A stretch of 64,000 nt of DNA from positions 189,235-253,234 of the forward strand of contig NZ_WOTN01000001.1 in assembly GCF_010993745.1 (NCBI RefSeq), written 5' to 3'. Positions 31,975 to 40,754 of this stretch are shown here, piece by piece (position 1 is the first letter of the stretch; each line of letters begins with the position of its first letter). The notes below the pieces were generated by a model. That model made no database searches. It was not told where the DNA came from and saw nothing but the letters and a program-made list of their open reading frames with translations. Made by a program: the position numbers and the translations under genes. Source of the stretch: Fodinicola acaciae. GTDB taxonomy: Bacteria; Actinomycetota; Actinomycetes; Mycobacteriales; HKI-0501.

Positions 31975-33171
<1,197 letters not shown>

Positions 33172-33187
33172 AACCTCACAGCCCTGA

Positions 33188-33213
33188 GACCCCGTCACCT
33201 CGGTGGCGGGGTC
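33188..33213 (+). terminator. metK terminator
   Basis: A 12-base stem with one G-U pair (33188-33199 with 33202-33213) closes a two-base loop right after metK, followed by TTAT. The loop would open by one pair in practice. Confidence 0.75.
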
Positions 33214-33245
33214 TTATGGTGTCGGTAACCCGACGAGGAGGACGT

Positions 33246-34223
33246 ATGCGCGCGTGGCAGGTCAAGGAGCTCGGCGAGCCGGCGGACGTACTCACCCTGG
33301 CGGAGCTCGACGATCCGGCGCCGGGACCCGGCCAGGTGCTGGTGCGGCCGTCGGCCGCCGCGATCAACTTCCCTGACGTGCTGATGTGCCGCGGCCTCTA
33401 CCAGGTCAAGCCGCCGCTGCCGTTCACCATCGGCCAGGAGCTGTGTGGCGAGGTGGTCGCGGTCGGCGACGGCGTGACCAACGTGGCCGTCGGCGACCGC
33501 GTGCTCGGCGCCGCGCAGGGAGCCTTCGCCGATCTCGCGCTGACCGACGCCGGCGTCGTCTTTCCGGCGCCCGACTCGCTGACCGACGACGAGGCCTCGG
33601 CGCTGTTCATCGGCTACCAGACCGGATGGTTCGCACTGCACCGGCGCGCGGCGTTGCGACCGGGGGAGACGCTGCTGGTGCATGCGGCCGCCGGTGGCGT
33701 CGGCAGCGCCGCCGTACAACTCGGCAAGGCCGCCGGTGCGCGCGTGATCGGCGTTGTCGGTGGTGCCGCGAAGGCCGAGTTTGCCAAACAGCTCGGCGCT
33801 GACCTGGTGATCGACCGGCATACGCAGGACGTCATCGCCACGGTCAAGGAGGCGACCGAGGGACGCGGCGTCGATGTCGTGTACGACCCGGTCGGCGGCG
33901 AGGCCTACCAGCAGTCGACCAAGGTCATCGCGTTCGAAGGCCGCATCCTGGTGATCGGCTTCGCCAGCGGCACGATCCCGCAGGTCGGCATCAACCACGC
34001 GCTGATCAAGAACTACTCGATCGTCGGCCTGCACTGGGGCCTCTACAACCACCGCGCGCCGCAGCTGGTGGCCGAGTGCCACGCCGAGCTGACCAAGCTG
34101 GCCGACGCCGGCGCGATCAAGCCGCTGATCACCGAGCGCGTACGTGTCGACCGGGTGCCGGAGGCCGTGCAGCGGCTCGCCGACGGCAAGACCGTCGGCC
34201 GCCTCGCCGTGGTACGCGGATAG
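33246..34223 (+). CDS. NADPH:quinone oxidoreductase, zeta-crystallin-like
   Basis: The 325-residue medium-chain reductase starts at an ATG after GAGGAGG. It has the GroES-like half (AINFPDVLMCRGLYQVKPPL, PFTIGQELCGEVVAVGDGV) and the NADPH-binding half with LLVHAAAGGVGSAAVQLGKA and VIDRHTQ. No zinc ligands are present, as in quinone oxidoreductases and related enoyl reductases. The substrate is unknown. It converges on the ammonia-lyase gene with nine bases between stops. Confidence 0.92.
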   Translation: MRAWQVKELGEPADVLTLAELDDPAPGPGQVLVRPSAAAINFPDVLMCRGLYQVKPPLPFTIGQELCGEVVAVGDGVTNVAVGDRVLGAAQGAFADLALTDAGVVFPAPDSLTDDEASALFIGYQTGWFALHRRAALRPGETLLVHAAAGGVGSAAVQLGKAAGARVIGVVGGAAKAEFAKQLGADLVIDRHTQDVIATVKEATEGRGVDVVYDPVGGEAYQQSTKVIAFEGRILVIGFASGTIPQVGINHALIKNYSIVGLHWGLYNHRAPQLVAECHAELTKLADAGAIKPLITERVRVDRVPEAVQRLADGKTVGRLAVVRG

Positions 34224-34232
34224 GCCCGCGGC

Positions 34233-35684
34233 TCACAGGTCGGCGAGCCGCGGCAGCAGTGCGGCGGCCCGGCGTACGTCCTCGGTCAGCGACCGGTCCG
34301 CCAGGTCGTCGGACAACTGCTCGCTGGCCAGCTCCAACACGCCGCGCGCCGGGATGTCGAGCAGCTCCGCACGGCGCATCCGCAGCGCGCGTACGGCCGC
34401 CACCAGCTCGCAGGCGAGCACCTGCCGGTATGCGGCGGCCGCGGCGGTCGTCTGTCGCGCGGCCTGGGTGGAGAACGACGCGTGGTCCTCCATGCCGCGC
34501 GAAACGACGGCCGTCCCCAGCGTCACCGGCAGCGCCGCCTGCCGCAGCTGCGCCAGTGTGTCGTGCGCCAGATATTCCAGGATCATCACGCCGGAGCTGC
34601 CGGCCGGACCGGAGGCCAGGAACGGCGGGAGGCCGGTGAACGACGGCTCGACCAGGTCACCGAGCCGCGCCGCGGACAGCTCGGCGACCGAGTGCAGCGC
34701 GGCGCGCACCTGGTCGAGCGCGAGCGCCACGTACGCGGTGTGGAAGTGCGCGTGGTGGAAGACGTTGCCGACCTCGACCGACACCATCGGGTTTTCCGCG
34801 CTGGCGTTGATCTCGATCTCCAGCACCTGCTCCAGATAGCGCCGTGTGTCCAGCGCCGGCCCCTGCACCTGCGGAAACGCGCGCAGGCCATACGGGTCCT
34901 GCAGCCGGCTGCCGGGCTTGGCCACGCCGTGCATGCCGAGCAGCCGGCGGATCTCGGCGGCGCATTCCACCTGGCCGGGATGCGGCCGCGCCTCGTGCAC
35001 CGGCGTCGCGTACGCCTCCGGAGAGCCGTCCAGCGCCACGTACGACAGCGCCGCCACACCATGGCTCGCGCGCAGCAGCCGGTTCAGCTCGACGCACACC
35101 AGCGCCGCCTCGGCGAGAGTGGCCGCGTTGCTGCTCATGAACGCCAGCGCGTCGCTGCTGTCGATCCGGATCGGCGGCAGCTCGCCGGCCTGCCACGGCC
35201 GCTCGCCGGCCAGCGCCAGGCCCGTCTCGGCGAGCGCGGTCAGGTCGCCGGTGCCGATGCCGCCAAACCGGTGCACCAGCGGCAACGCGCCGTCGGCCAG
35301 CGCGTGTGCCAGCGCGGTGAGCAGCCGGGGATGCGCGCCGGAGCGGCCGGTGGCGAGCTGGTTGAGCCGGATCACCAGCATCGCCCGTACGTGCTCCGGC
35401 GGCAGCGGGTCGCCGCCACCGCCGGCGTGGCTGCGCAGCAACCGCAGGCCGTGCTCGCCGGCCGCCTCCGGCGGCACCGGTTCGTCGCGGTTGGCGCCGA
35501 CGCCGGTCGTACGCCCGTAGACGTGCCGCCGCGAGGCGAGGTCGCCGGCCAGCTGCCAGGACTGCTCGGCGCGGCTGACGGCGGAGTCGTCGAGCTCGGC
35601 GCGCGCCGCGCCGCTGGCCACCGACGCGACGTCAGCGCAGGTCAGGGCGCGGCCGTCGACACGTACGACAGGAGGATCGGTCAT
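34233..35684 (-). CDS. Aromatic amino acid ammonia-lyase family protein with Gly-Thr-Gly MIO triad
   Basis: From the ATG at 35684 the protein has 483 residues and aligns over its whole length with histidine/phenylalanine ammonia-lyases: catalytic Tyr56 in HVYGRTTGVG, RLLRSHAGGGGDPLP, VRAMLVIRLNQLATGRSG, the MIO region at 141-150, and EINASAENPMVS and MEDHASFSTQAARQT. The Ser-His pair (85-86) matches the specificity pair of histidine enzymes. The MIO-forming Ala-Ser-Gly reads Gly144-Thr145-Gly146, so whether the electrophile forms is open. Its gene follows a SARP regulator by five bases, pointing to specialised metabolism. Confidence 0.9.
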   Translation of the reverse strand: MTDPPVVRVDGRALTCADVASVASGAARAELDDSAVSRAEQSWQLAGDLASRRHVYGRTTGVGANRDEPVPPEAAGEHGLRLLRSHAGGGGDPLPPEHVRAMLVIRLNQLATGRSGAHPRLLTALAHALADGALPLVHRFGGIGTGDLTALAETGLALAGERPWQAGELPPIRIDSSDALAFMSSNAATLAEAALVCVELNRLLRASHGVAALSYVALDGSPEAYATPVHEARPHPGQVECAAEIRRLLGMHGVAKPGSRLQDPYGLRAFPQVQGPALDTRRYLEQVLEIEINASAENPMVSVEVGNVFHHAHFHTAYVALALDQVRAALHSVAELSAARLGDLVEPSFTGLPPFLASGPAGSSGVMILEYLAHDTLAQLRQAALPVTLGTAVVSRGMEDHASFSTQAARQTTAAAAAYRQVLACELVAAVRALRMRRAELLDIPARGVLELASEQLSDDLADRSLTEDVRRAAALLPRLADL

Positions 35685-35689
35685 CGCGG

Positions 35690-38455
35690 TCAGCTCGCGC
35701 GCGATGTGCTCGGCGTGGCCAGGTCGGCCAGCCAGCCGCGCAGTCGCTGCGCCGCCGGCAGGTCGTCGCGTTCCTCGCAGGTGCGCAACGCCTCGGTCCA
35801 CACGTCACGAGCGCACTCGCGGTGGCCGGCGGCCAGCAGCTGGCGGCCGAGGCTGCCTCGTACGGCCACCGCCAGCGTCGTCACGCCGGCGTGTTCGGCC
35901 TGGTCGAGAGCGTCGCGGTAGCTGGCGATGGCGGTCGTCCGGTCGCCGAGCCCGGCGCTGGCGTCAGCCTCGGTCTCCAGCGTGTACGCCAGCCGGGCCG
36001 GGTCGTTGAGGTCGCGGAAGATCGCCGCCGCCTTGCGCGCGTTGTCGAGTGCGTCGGCGTAGTGACCGAGTCCGTTCAAAGCGACAGCCAGGTTGTTGAG
36101 CACCATCGCCTTCGACAGTCGTACGCCTGTCGTCTCGCAGAGCGCCAACGCCTGCCGCATGGTGTCGCGAGCCTCGCCGTAGCGGCTGGACAGGTTGTAG
36201 CTGGAGCCGATGTTGATCAGCGCCATCAGCTGCTCGACCGGCGCGCCCAGGTGCTCGAACAGCGTGAGTGCGCGGCGGCAGGCGTCGATGGCGTCCTCGG
36301 TGCGGTGCAGCCGGCTGTACGGCGTGGCGAGGCCGTTGAGCGCCTTGGCCTCCAGGAACTGGTCGCCGGCCGCCCGCGCCGAGGCCACCGTCAGCTCACC
36401 GATCCGCAGCATCTCGTCCCAGTGACCGCGGATGTAGCGATGAGCCCAGCCGAGCTCGCCGAGGACCGCGGCGCGCCGGTGGTCGCCGCGGCTGACGGCC
36501 AGCTCGACCAGCGCGGCGATCGTCGAGCGCTGGCCGTCCCACCAGGCGATCGCCTGCGGATAGCCACCGAATCGAGCCGGCGTCGCGTACTCGTACGGCG
36601 TCGGCAGCCGCAGGCCGTGTGGATAGTCGGTGAGCTTCTCGCGCGCATTGGCGGCGGAGTGGACATACCAGTCCAGCAGCCTTCCGATCGCGGCGTCGCG
36701 GCCGGTGGCGGTCAGCTCGGTCTCGGCGACCTCCGCCGCGTACTCGCGGAGCAGGTCGTGCAGCTCGTACCGGTCGGTCGAGCGGCGCTCCAGCATGCTG
36801 GTCGACACCAGCTCGTCGAGCAACGCGGCGGCCTGGCGGTCGTCGACGCCACCGAGCGCGGCGGCCGCGCCGGTGCTCACGTCGTTGCCGGGATGCAGGC
36901 CGAGCAGGCCGAACAGTGTCGCGGCCGGCGCGGCAAGTGCCTGGTATGACCACGAGAACACCGCGCGCAGGTCGGACGGCGTGTCGTCGAGCGAGAAGGT
37001 GTCCAGCCGGCGGCGCTGGTGGTGCAGCTCGGTGAGCAGGTCGCCGAGCAGCCGGCCGGGATGGCGCGCGGCCGGCTCGGCGGCCAGCCGTACGGTCAGC
37101 GGCAGCCGGTCGCACAGCTCGACGATGCCGGCGGCCGCGGCTGGCTCGCGCGCGACCCGCTCGCCGCCGATCACACCGGCCAGCAGGTTGGTCGCGTCGG
37201 CGCTGGTCAGCTGTCCGACGGTGATCCGCCGCGCACCCTCGCGTACGGTCAGGCCGCGCAGCTGGCGGCGGCTGGTGACCAGCACGACGGCGTCGGTGCC
37301 AGGCAACAGCGGCCGCACCTGGTCGCTGTCGCGCGCGTTGTCCAGCACGATCAGCATCCGCCGGCCGGCCAGCTCGCTGCGGAAGACGGCGGCGCGCGCG
37401 TCGATGTCGGCGGGGATGTTGTCGACCGGCACGTTCAGCGACCGGAGCGCGGTCTCCAGCGCGTCGGCCGGTTCGACCGGCGTACCGGGACCGAAACCGC
37501 GCAGGTTGACATAGAGCTGGCCGTCTGGGAACAGGTCACTGACCCGGTGGGCCCAGTGCACCGCCAGCGCGGTCTTGCCGCTGCCGGCGGCGCCGTCAAT
37601 GGCCGCGATCACCACCGCGGAGGAGGGACCGATCAGTGCGTCGAGGCGGGCGAGCTGGTCCTCTCGGCCGGTGAATCCGGTGACGTCCGGCGGAAGCTGC
37701 CGCGGCGGACGTACGATCGTCGCGGCCGGCGGGGCGAGCAGCGAGCTGCGGTCCTCCAGGATCGCCTGGTGCAGGTCGCCGAGGTGGCGGCCGGGGTCGA
37801 GGCCGAGCTGGTCGCGGATCGCGGCGGCGGCCGTACGGTAGGCCTCCAGCGCGTCGGCGCGCCGGCCACAGCGGTGCAGCGCCAGCATCAGCCGCTGCCA
37901 CAACGCCTCACGCAGCGGATGTGCGGCGGTGAGACTGCGCAGCTCACCAAGCACCTCGCGGTGACGGCCGGCCTCCAGATCGATGTCCAGCCGCCGCTCC
38001 AGCGCCGACAGCAGCTCCTCGGTCAGCTCGCGCCCCGCCTCGTGCCGCAGCCGCTCGGACGGCACGTCGGCCAGCGGGTCGCCGCGCCACAACGCGAGCG
38101 CCTGGCGCAGCAGGTCGAGCTCGACGTCCGGGTCGCCGGCCGTGCGCGCGGCGTGCACCAACTCGCGAAACCGCAGCGCGTCGACCGCCGCGGGGTCGAT
38201 CCGCAACAGATAGCCGGGGCCGACCGTGACGATCCGCTCGTTGCCCAGCTGGCGGCGCAGCCTGGCGACGACGGTTTGCAAGCTGTTACGGGTGGACGGC
38301 GGCTCCGGCCACGCGTAGTCGGTGAGCGCCTGGTAGGACACCGTACGGTTGGCGGACAGCACGAGGGCGGCGAGCACAGCTCGCTGCCGTCCCCGCACGT
38401 CCGTGGGGCTCGCGTCGACGATCGCTTCGAACGGCCCCAGGACGTTGAACGCCAT
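35690..38455 (-). CDS. AfsR/SARP-family transcriptional regulator
   Basis: The 921-residue regulator starts with an OmpR-like winged helix (about 1-90: NVLGPFEAIVDASPTDVRGR, RRQLGNERIVTVGPGYLLRI), then a bacterial activation domain (about 95-240, LWRGDPLADVPSERLRHEAG), an NB-ARC ATPase (about 280-520, Walker A GAAGSGKTA and Walker B RRMLIVLDNARD), and C-terminal tetratricopeptide repeats (about 640-900). This is the AfsR layout that switches on antibiotic pathways. The ATG at 38455 is preferred; a TTG at 38470 is possible. The ammonia-lyase homologue is its operon partner and probable pathway gene. Confidence 0.93.
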   Translation of the reverse strand: MAFNVLGPFEAIVDASPTDVRGRQRAVLAALVLSANRTVSYQALTDYAWPEPPSTRNSLQTVVARLRRQLGNERIVTVGPGYLLRIDPAAVDALRFRELVHAARTAGDPDVELDLLRQALALWRGDPLADVPSERLRHEAGRELTEELLSALERRLDIDLEAGRHREVLGELRSLTAAHPLREALWQRLMLALHRCGRRADALEAYRTAAAAIRDQLGLDPGRHLGDLHQAILEDRSSLLAPPAATIVRPPRQLPPDVTGFTGREDQLARLDALIGPSSAVVIAAIDGAAGSGKTALAVHWAHRVSDLFPDGQLYVNLRGFGPGTPVEPADALETALRSLNVPVDNIPADIDARAAVFRSELAGRRMLIVLDNARDSDQVRPLLPGTDAVVLVTSRRQLRGLTVREGARRITVGQLTSADATNLLAGVIGGERVAREPAAAAGIVELCDRLPLTVRLAAEPAARHPGRLLGDLLTELHHQRRRLDTFSLDDTPSDLRAVFSWSYQALAAPAATLFGLLGLHPGNDVSTGAAAALGGVDDRQAAALLDELVSTSMLERRSTDRYELHDLLREYAAEVAETELTATGRDAAIGRLLDWYVHSAANAREKLTDYPHGLRLPTPYEYATPARFGGYPQAIAWWDGQRSTIAALVELAVSRGDHRRAAVLGELGWAHRYIRGHWDEMLRIGELTVASARAAGDQFLEAKALNGLATPYSRLHRTEDAIDACRRALTLFEHLGAPVEQLMALINIGSSYNLSSRYGEARDTMRQALALCETTGVRLSKAMVLNNLAVALNGLGHYADALDNARKAAAIFRDLNDPARLAYTLETEADASAGLGDRTTAIASYRDALDQAEHAGVTTLAVAVRGSLGRQLLAAGHRECARDVWTEALRTCEERDDLPAAQRLRGWLADLATPSTSRAS

Positions 38456-38735: not shown

Positions 38736-40754
38736 GTGACTGAGGGGGACGGCCAGCTGGCGCTGAGCGGACTCGCGCCGCGGCCGGCCCGCAAGCGCAA
38801 GCCGGGGGGTGGCCAGCAGCCGGCGGCGGCGTTGCCGGTCGCCAGGGTCGCCGTGGACATGTCGCTGGCACACCTCGACCGGCCGTTCGACTATCTGGTG
38901 CCGGCCGAGTGCGACGAGTCGGTCGTGCCGGGGTCGCGGGTGCGCGTACGGTTCGCCGGCCAGTTGGTGGACGGATACGTGCTGGCCCGCGCCGAGCAGA
39001 GCGAGCACCCCGGCAAGCTGGCATTTCTGCAGCGTGCGGTGTCCGCCGAGGCGGTGTTGAGCAGCGAGATCGCGGCCGTCGCGAGACAGGTGGCCGACCG
39101 CTACGCGGGCACGCTGGCGGACGTGTTGCGGCTGGCCATTCCGCCGCGGCACGCGCGCGCGGAGGCGGTGCGGACCGAGCCGGCGACCGGGGAGGTGCCG
39201 GAGCCGGATCCGGCCGGCTGGTCCAGATACGAGACCGGCGCGCAGTATCTCGGCGCGCTGGCCGACGGTCGCGCGCCGCGTGCGGTGTGGGGTGCGTTGG
39301 CCGGCGACGACTGGCCGGCACGGCTCGCCGAGGCCGCGGCGGCGTGCGTACGGTCCGGCCGCGGCGCGGTGCTGGTGGTGCCGGACCAGCGCGACCTCGA
39401 CCGCCTCGACGCGGCGCTGACCAGCGCGCTCGGCCCCGACCGGCACGTCAGCCTGTCCGCCGCGCTCGGTCCGGAAAGCCGCTATCGGCGCTGGTTGCGC
39501 GCCAGTCGCGGCCACGTGCCGGTGGTGGCTGGCACGCGCGCGGCGGCCTTCGCCCCGGTGCACAACGTCGGCCTGCTGGCGATCTGGGACGACGGCGACG
39601 ACCTGCACAACGAGCCGCGCGCGCCCTATCCGCACGCGCGCCAGGTGCTGCTCACCAGAGCGCAACACTCAGGCGCCGCGGTGCTGGTCGGCGCGTACGG
39701 CCGCACAGCCGAAGCGCAGCTGTTGCTCGAGTCCGGCTGGGCTCACGAGTTGGCCGGATCGCGGGCGACCGTACGCGCCGCGACGCCACGGGTCGTGCCG
39801 GTCGGCGACGAGCGTGACATGGAGCGCGACGCGGCGGCGGTGGCCGCGCGGCTGCCGACGGTCGCCTGGCAGGCGGCGCGCAAGGCGCTGGCCGACGGCG
39901 CGCCGGTGCTCGTACAGGTGCCGCGCCGGGGATATCTGCCGTCCATGGCCTGCGAGCGGTGCCGGGCGCCGGCTCGCTGCTCGGCCTGCGCCGGACCGCT
40001 GGCATTGTCGAGCGGCCATGCCGTCCCCAGTTGCCGGTGGTGCGGACGGCTGGCCGGCGACTGGACGTGTCCGGAGTGTTCGTCGCGGCGGCTGCGCGCG
40101 GCGGTCATCGGCGCCAGGCGGACGGCCGAGGAGCTTGGCCGCGCCTTCGCCGGCACGGCCGTACGCACCTCAGGCCGCGACGGAGTCATCGCGCGGGTGC
40201 CGCACGACGCGGCCCTGGTCATCGCCACGCCTGGTGCGGAGCCGGTCGCCGACGGCGGCTACGGCGCCGCGCTGCTGCTGGACAGCTGGGCCCTGCTCAC
40301 CCGCGCCGACCTGCGAGCCGCCGAGGAGACTTTGCGGCGCTGGGCCAACGCCGCGGCGCTCGTACGCTCGACCGGCACGGTCGTCGTACATGCCGACGGC
40401 ACGATCCCGGTCGTGCAGGCGCTGCTGCGCTGGGACCCCGGTTGGCACGCCGCCGCCGAGCTGGCCGACCGCACCGCGCTCGGTTTCCCACCGGCCGTAC
40501 GGATGGCCTCGCTCACCGGCCGCGCCGACGCGGTCGCCGACCTGCTGCAGACCGCTCGGCTGCCGGAAGGCGCCGAGACCCTCGGCCCGGTGCCGGCGTC
40601 CGAGGACGACGACACCGAGCGCACGCTCGTACGCGTCCGCCGCGGCCAGGGACCGGCGCTGGCCGACGCGCTCCGACAGGCCGCCGGCGTGCGAAGCGCG
40701 CGTAAGGCCCCCGACCCGGTCCGCGTCCAGATCGATCCGACCGAGCTGCTTTAG
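38736..40754 (+). CDS. priA: Primosomal protein N', actinobacterial PriA without helicase motifs
   Basis: The 672-residue protein has the PriA DNA-binding start (DMSLAHLDRPFDYLVPAE then GSRVRVRFAGQLVDGYVL) and eight Cys in two zinc modules (ACERCRAPARCSACAG and SCRWCGRLAGDWTCPEC). Walker A is absent: the region reads LAGDDWPARLAEAAAACVRS instead of a GxTGSGKTE motif, and the DExH box reads IWDDGDDLHNE. This is the known form in actinobacteria, annotated as probable replication restart protein without helicase activity. GTG start. Confidence 0.95.
   Translation: MTEGDGQLALSGLAPRPARKRKPGGGQQPAAALPVARVAVDMSLAHLDRPFDYLVPAECDESVVPGSRVRVRFAGQLVDGYVLARAEQSEHPGKLAFLQRAVSAEAVLSSEIAAVARQVADRYAGTLADVLRLAIPPRHARAEAVRTEPATGEVPEPDPAGWSRYETGAQYLGALADGRAPRAVWGALAGDDWPARLAEAAAACVRSGRGAVLVVPDQRDLDRLDAALTSALGPDRHVSLSAALGPESRYRRWLRASRGHVPVVAGTRAAAFAPVHNVGLLAIWDDGDDLHNEPRAPYPHARQVLLTRAQHSGAAVLVGAYGRTAEAQLLLESGWAHELAGSRATVRAATPRVVPVGDERDMERDAAAVAARLPTVAWQAARKALADGAPVLVQVPRRGYLPSMACERCRAPARCSACAGPLALSSGHAVPSCRWCGRLAGDWTCPECSSRRLRAAVIGARRTAEELGRAFAGTAVRTSGRDGVIARVPHDAALVIATPGAEPVADGGYGAALLLDSWALLTRADLRAAEETLRRWANAAALVRSTGTVVVHADGTIPVVQALLRWDPGWHAAAELADRTALGFPPAVRMASLTGRADAVADLLQTARLPEGAETLGPVPASEDDDTERTLVRVRRGQGPALADALRQAAGVRSARKAPDPVRVQIDPTELL

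Follow-up and report, generated by a model that had tools for sequence, protein, structure and literature searches.

The window, the whole 64-kb stretch of DNA that was analysed, belongs to an 8.86 Mb genome in 4 contigs, and two adjoining genes on its minus strand are described here; all features of the pair given below are on that strand. The first gene (34233–35684, with its ATG at 35684 and its stop at 34233) encodes a 483-aa lyase homologue that matches the Pfam family PF00221 with 404 bits. On the HutH equivalog model TIGR01225, the protein scores 293 bits, under the cut-off of 539, and the T. denticola ergothionase 6s7j scores 363 bits on the same model. Among the matches listed, relatives with an open frame show up to 72% identity, and the nearest named relative is that of Fodinicola feengrottensis, with 84% identity in its best segment. 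The second gene (35690–38455), directly upstream of the first, encodes a SARP/AfsR-like regulator of 921 residues. The pair is flanked by metK, a quinone oxidoreductase gene and a PriA-like gene (31975–34223 and 38736–40754); the order of metK and the oxidoreductase is kept in F. feengrottensis, with extra DNA between.

The regulator carries Trans_reg_C, BTAD and TPR domains as well as an NB-ARC domain just under the Pfam cut-off, and its score on the NCBIfam AfsR model (490.6 bits) is under the cut-off of 1430. Its gene stops at 35690, which leaves five bases to the ATG of the lyase on the same strand, in agreement with an earlier note on this DNA, which had placed a SARP gene immediately upstream of the lyase. 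The two genes are probably co-transcribed, and the SARP may control the lyase in this way; a promoter and terminator scan returned no match. The earlier note had also proposed a dedicated SARP–lyase system. However, when the flanks of 121 loci were scanned, a match to the window SARP of at least 60 bits was found in the window and in F. feengrottensis only. The other 118 loci, including 3 canonical HutH loci and 4 duplicates, gave no match at this threshold, and SARP plus lyase as a general conserved system was rejected on this ground. Note that the two F. feengrottensis loci (L041 and L102) are one contig, where a 559-aa FAD-monooxygenase-like ORF (named by eye) lies between SARP and lyase. 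In that genome the SARP, lyase, HutH and HutU genes are each fragmented, which points to draft quality. The regulators near other members of the group are of the RpiR, IclR or LacI type.

The lyase was aligned with the solved P. putida HAL by means of a profile of 18 homologues (17 short-loop proteins and one HutH) and in two MAFFT multiple alignments. HAL numbering was counted on the printed chain and agrees with the PDB titles D145A, Y280F and F329A. The residue tally covers 154 rows, consisting of the window, 36 order-level rows, 79 named GTDB rows, 10 phylum-level rows, four plasmid-record loci, 6s7j and 23 full-loop rows; four broken or short loci (L041, L102, L171 and L172) stand outside it. 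Tyr56 (35517–35519), the equivalent of the catalytic Tyr53 of HAL, is Tyr in 154/154 rows, and the pair Ser85-His86 (35427–35432), equivalent to the His83 pair of HAL, has His in 154/154. Across the short-loop rows, the equivalents of Tyr53, His83, Gln277, Arg283 and Phe329 are kept in 131/131, and Glu399 (34488–34490), the equivalent of HAL Glu414, is Glu in all 130 rows that reach the position. We take Glu414 to be an imidazole-binding residue of HAL, which presumably uses His and Glu for the imidazole. The residue before Glu414 is Gln in 22 of the 23 full-loop rows and mostly Leu, Ile or Val in the short-loop rows; it is Met in the window, not the Gln413 of HAL. At the HAL Tyr280 position, the 131 short-loop rows have Phe (96), Tyr (27, window included), Leu (7) or Val (1). 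The lyase gene is real, intact and conserved, and its open frame together with the conserved residues rules out a pseudogene.

The MIO loop is represented by Gly144-Thr145-Gly146 (35247–35255; codons GGC ACC GGC, read from 35255 to 35247), a remnant which the earlier note had described as Gly-Thr-Gly in place of Ala-Ser-Gly. The open frame, Tyr56, Ser85-His86 and this tripeptide all lie where that note had put them, and its view that the fold, the catalytic Tyr and the Ser-His pair are kept while the triad is abnormal was borne out; the tripeptide, however, is no substitution. The profile alignment gives a one-residue gap in the window triad, with the HAL loop G-S-V-G-A-S-G-D-L set against G-x-I-G-T-G-D-L of the short-loop profile (VGASGD to IG-TGD) and with the preceding G-x-[VIL]-G and the following G-D-L kept, and both MAFFT alignments place the same gap. 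As read from these alignments, the first Gly of Gly-Thr-Gly is the Gly that precedes the triad, one triad residue is gone and the Thr remains, in a loop one residue shorter than that of HAL; on the same reading, the MIO-forming Ala-Ser-Gly is missing from the window lyase. In addition, Ser184-Ser185-Asn186-Ala187 (35124–35135) is aligned with HAL Asn195-Gly-Thr and constitutes a second mark of MIO loss. Here HAL Asn195 is Ser in the window lyase; the earlier note had missed this Ser as well as the Met before the Glu414 equivalent.

The two marks go together throughout the 154 rows, with the short loop and Ser at HAL Asn195 in 131/131 and the full loop and Asn (Asn-Gly-Thr) in 23/23; this last count is 22/22 without TAM, whose triad was entered by hand because the solved chain prints MIO as one letter. 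Among 122 non-duplicate rows of the window type, the window itself counted, the loop is [IVL]G-TGD in 114 and IGD in 2, and 6 keep the Thr in TSD, TAD or TAE. Eight loci with short flanks (L010–L013, L023, L024, L026 and L027), which enter one multiple alignment only and of which L011 is the same gene as L039, read G-TGD there. Note that 5 of the 53 genomes with matches (G092, G152, G158, G170 and G176) were left out. A sequencing error at 35245–35255, a possibility raised in the earlier note, was rejected, since the short loop is conserved among relatives across the 122 rows. In the short-loop group as a whole, the residue of the gap region is mostly Thr and also Glu, Gln, Ala or Ile. Judged by its sequence, the window protein is very probably without MIO.

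The same two changes occur in ergothionase, which lacks MIO according to a 2026 paper (PMC13405746). The T. denticola enzyme 6s7j reads SSIG-EGD in the loop and SCNA downstream, and its alignment with the window lyase has no gap in the MIO loop and the same S-x-N-A; homologues from S. meliloti, Burkholderia arboris and Polaromonas also have the short loop and S-x-N-A. With the MIO, Asn195 and Glu414 columns masked, the short-loop rows formed one side of a branch, with SH-aLRT support of 99 in a tree of 57 rows and support of 100/99 in a tree of 39 rows, where the branch was present in 100% of 200 bootstrap trees. A single loss of MIO presumes a root among the MIO enzymes, which were taken as the outgroup. 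The proteobacterial ergothionase homologues and 6s7j formed their own supported group (99) in the 57-row tree. In an AU test (p 0.54), the split tested was compatible with the favoured tree, which decides nothing. The AlphaFold model of the window lyase (mean pLDDT 86) matched HAL, TAM, PAL and ergothionase structures with Z of 29–40, and the values for HAL, TAM and ergothionase (37.7–39.8, with Thermoplasma HAL at 39.8, ergothionase at 38.1 and P. putida HAL at 37.7–37.9) do not discriminate between them. Given that 6s7j shares the short loop and Ser195 and falls in a common tree group, the window protein is, as far as its sequence tells, a MIO-free lyase of the ergothionase kind and not a Thr-MIO enzyme. 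It is probably not an ammonia-lyase, in line with the doubt in the earlier note whether it is a lyase at all. The names of the 8 NCBIfam models listed for the window protein and 6s7j cover neither this group nor ergothionase, so annotation by homology is likely to label such genes histidine ammonia-lyase.

The phylum-level homologue L181 has a VG-AGD loop with SSNA and joins the ergothionase side of the tree with weak support (81); it also has a three-residue insertion in the HAL Met382 region. Pseudonocardia endophytica encodes, in addition to a HutH and the window-type lyase, a third homologue (L207, G780:C2:1922944–1924311) with the short loop GSIG-AAD, like the ergothionase side, and no HutU-type gene was found in its flanks (L228). 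The proteobacterial proteins L153 (S. meliloti pSymA) and L154 (B. arboris) start with a stretch that resembles a signal peptide by eye.

We then surveyed by tblastn the surroundings of 111 non-duplicate short-loop loci besides the window, taking flanks of up to 8 kb, or less where a contig ended; L073, L096, L115 and L116 were left out as duplicates. Urocanate hydratase HutU, HutF and an M20 hydrolase occur in the same 7 of the 111 loci, and HutI in 7, one of these outside the HutU-linked set. A betaine-type ABC transporter (ATPase and binding protein) is present in 18/111. The flanks of 88 loci, which include most of the closer relatives of the window, e.g., in Amycolatopsis and Actinophytocola, contain neither hut genes nor the transporter, and the 64-kb window likewise contains no hut genes, no HutU-type hydratase and no betaine-type transporter. 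The hut-linked relatives are 57–68% identical to the window lyase, apart from L066 with 44%. In P. endophytica and four Actinomycetospora, the genes hutU-M20-hutF-hutI are followed directly by the lyase, whereas in Nocardioides luteus hutU-hutF stand on one side of the lyase and the ABC transporter, M20 and hutI, in this order, on the other. Of the two HutU genes in N. luteus, one accompanies a canonical HutH and the other the MIO-free lyase and transporter. Note that the five Pseudonocardia and Actinomycetospora loci are related, so that the number of independent events is below seven; in a FastTree tree with 112 rows, HutU linkage required 5 changes and transporter linkage 7. All seven linked hydratases score highest on the urocanate hydratase model TIGR01228, from 671 (contig-cut) to 925, and they reach 507–660 on the thiourocanate hydratase model NF058530 (cut-off 930). 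As a positive control, the hydratase adjoining the B. arboris ergothionase homologue scored 1050 on NF058530 and 706 on TIGR01228.

The binding protein of N. luteus (L079) matches ProX and EgtU about equally. Canonical HutH, too, has this betaine-type transporter as a neighbour in two loci (L072 and L229), so the transporter may carry histidine or urocanate. In the window genome, a betaine-type binding protein is encoded about 12 kb from hutH (C4:1290000–1306000). A CDO-type cupin and an Amidohydro_2-like protein (just under the Pfam cut-off) occur in 14/111 loci each, e.g., as a pair at about 6270–7840 of L053, often together with a LacI regulator; an NCBIfam search gave no family for the cupin or the amidohydrolase. 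A thiol dioxygenase beside the lyase might indicate that the sulfur of ergothioneine is removed first, giving hercynine. Several Streptomyces and Amycolatopsis loci have an RpiR regulator and an MFS-like gene, and Sciscionella (L114 and L132) has two tandem copies of the MIO-free lyase beside an RpiR regulator. The neighbourhood of L105, which bears the doubtful label Rhodococcus rhodnii and comes from a 12.4 Mb genome, is like that in Kibdelosporangium.

The window genome also encodes an ordinary HutH with a Cys-Ser-Gly triad, HutU and EgtD, the enzyme that makes hercynine, plus betaine-type binding proteins elsewhere. In 12 hand-picked genomes (six hut-linked and six not), HutU and EgtD were each found in 12/12; since EgtD is expected widely in Actinomycetota, its presence gives weak support. 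A further full-loop HutH with Cys-Ser-Gly is carried by 10 of the 12 (in pieces in F. feengrottensis). The draft genomes of Actinomycetospora callitridis (L135) and A. termitidis, whose lyase sits in the hut operon, gave no other PF00221 match, whereas in A. chibensis and A. cinnamomea the same operon is present and a canonical HutH is encoded at another site, whose 8-kb flanks gave no match to HutU, HutF or HutI.

Directly supported by these data are the loss of the MIO-forming sequence and of Asn195, the grouping with ergothionase, and the hut and transporter linkage of some relatives. MIO activates an amino group as a leaving group, whereas a trimethylated nitrogen can leave as trimethylamine by acid–base catalysis alone, as in ergothionase. 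A trimethylamine-type leaving group is likely for the window protein. As for the substrate, a predicted urocanate product, the kept imidazole pocket (His86 and Glu399) and the probable lack of MIO point to hercynine (N-alpha-trimethylhistidine), which we propose, with modest confidence, to be converted to urocanate and trimethylamine. In this reaction, the active-site Tyr would remove the beta-proton of the imidazole substrate, and the alpha-nitrogen, already a quaternary trimethylammonium, would leave without the MIO electrophile; the urocanate could then enter the ordinary hut pathway. We infer that the window protein has the same function as those of its relatives that are linked to hut genes. 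In the window organism, where the gene stands alone with the SARP, the enzyme could act on hercynine from inside or outside the cell, given that the genome encodes EgtD and a separate HutH and HutU. We know of no activity reported for any window-type protein, and in our literature searches we recognised no paper on a hercynine trimethylamine-lyase or on the MIO-free actinobacterial group.

Alternatively, the protein could be a MIO-free lyase that acts on a different aromatic or imidazole betaine, or catalyse a step in a SARP-controlled pathway. The varied regulators and neighbours in the family, such as the RpiR and MFS-like genes in several Streptomyces and Amycolatopsis loci, and the SARP directly upstream in the window would suit this reading. 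However, the equivalents of the imidazole-site His and Glu are kept throughout, some relatives are linked to hut genes, and the SARP neighbour is not conserved, so that we regard this alternative as unlikely. A true ergothionase, converting ergothioneine to thiourocanate and trimethylamine, also appears unlikely. It would agree with the MIO-free group shared with 6s7j, with the EgtU-related betaine-type transporter beside some relatives, with EgtD in the host, and with the CDO-type cupin, which may point to a substrate containing sulfur in the branch concerned. On the other hand, the hydratases in 7/7 linked loci are for urocanate and not thiourocanate, the proteobacterial homologues and 6s7j form a separate supported group, and the Lys of the 6s7j IQK motif (chain position 383 by count), presumably catalytic in ergothionase, is Tyr in the window (LEY). 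Note that this Lys is present in L154 and L155 and absent from S. meliloti L153, so that it is no clean marker; the substrate of L153 may differ.

A cofactor-free histidine ammonia-lyase, which would remove ammonia from histidine without MIO and replace HutH in some hut operons, is improbable. Its place directly after hutU-M20-hutF-hutI in five loci and the two Actinomycetospora drafts with no other PF00221 match would fit such an enzyme. However, from MIO chemistry, deamination of histidine without the electrophile should not work, most of the picked genomes (10/12) also carry a full-loop HutH, and A. chibensis and A. cinnamomea combine the same operon with a canonical HutH. In addition, a MIO-deficient PAL variant lost all hydroamination activity with the two acrylates tested, according to a published study (PMC12535398). 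Finally, the Thr-derived MIO with an extra methyl group put forward in the earlier note, or an otherwise ordinary MIO lyase, was rejected as very improbable: the fold and most catalytic residues are kept and Thr could in principle dehydrate, but the loop lacks one residue and 131/131 short-loop rows have lost Asn195, exactly as in ergothionase, and relatives of the same group have E, Q, A or I in place of the Thr, a variation that itself disfavours a MIO made from Thr.

By sequence alone, this group can be told from true HALs through a two-residue signature, the short loop together with Ser at 195, and at least 80 actinobacterial loci of the lyase family were seen in one scan. The proposed activity, if true, is one that we did not find described in the literature searched. 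Cleavage of hercynine would then open a second route into histidine catabolism, draw off the precursor of ergothioneine and supply trimethylamine. Moreover, HAL and the MIO-free lyase form a pair with the same fold and imidazole pocket and a different leaving group, so that the reason why MIO is needed becomes directly testable.

Among known systems, the window regulator shares the Trans_reg_C, BTAD, NB-ARC and TPR domains with AfsR and other large SARPs, but it falls under the AfsR equivalog cut-off and its linkage to the lyase is seen in Fodinicola only. The transporter beside 18 of the 111 loci is of the same type as the EgtU/ProX osmoprotectant ABC transporters; it is however absent from the window and in two loci accompanies canonical HutH. 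HutH (P. putida 1b8f/1gkm, and the HutH of the window genome at C4:1305801) resembles the window lyase in its fold and in the equivalents of Tyr53, His83, Gln277, Arg283, Phe329 and Glu414, and some window-type relatives sit in the same type of operon, but the window lyase has no Ala/Cys-Ser-Gly, no Asn195 and no Gln413. Ergothionase (6s7j/6s7q, Burkholderia sp. HME13), for which the comparison rests on 6s7j and three proteobacterial homologues and not on the HME13 sequence, shares the HAL fold, the short MIO loop, S-x-N-A for N-G-T and the catalytic Tyr. The window lyase differs from it in having Thr instead of Glu in the loop, in the absence of the IQK Lys and in an identity of 25% in the structural match, and its relatives differ in being linked to a urocanate and not a thiourocanate hydratase in seven loci.
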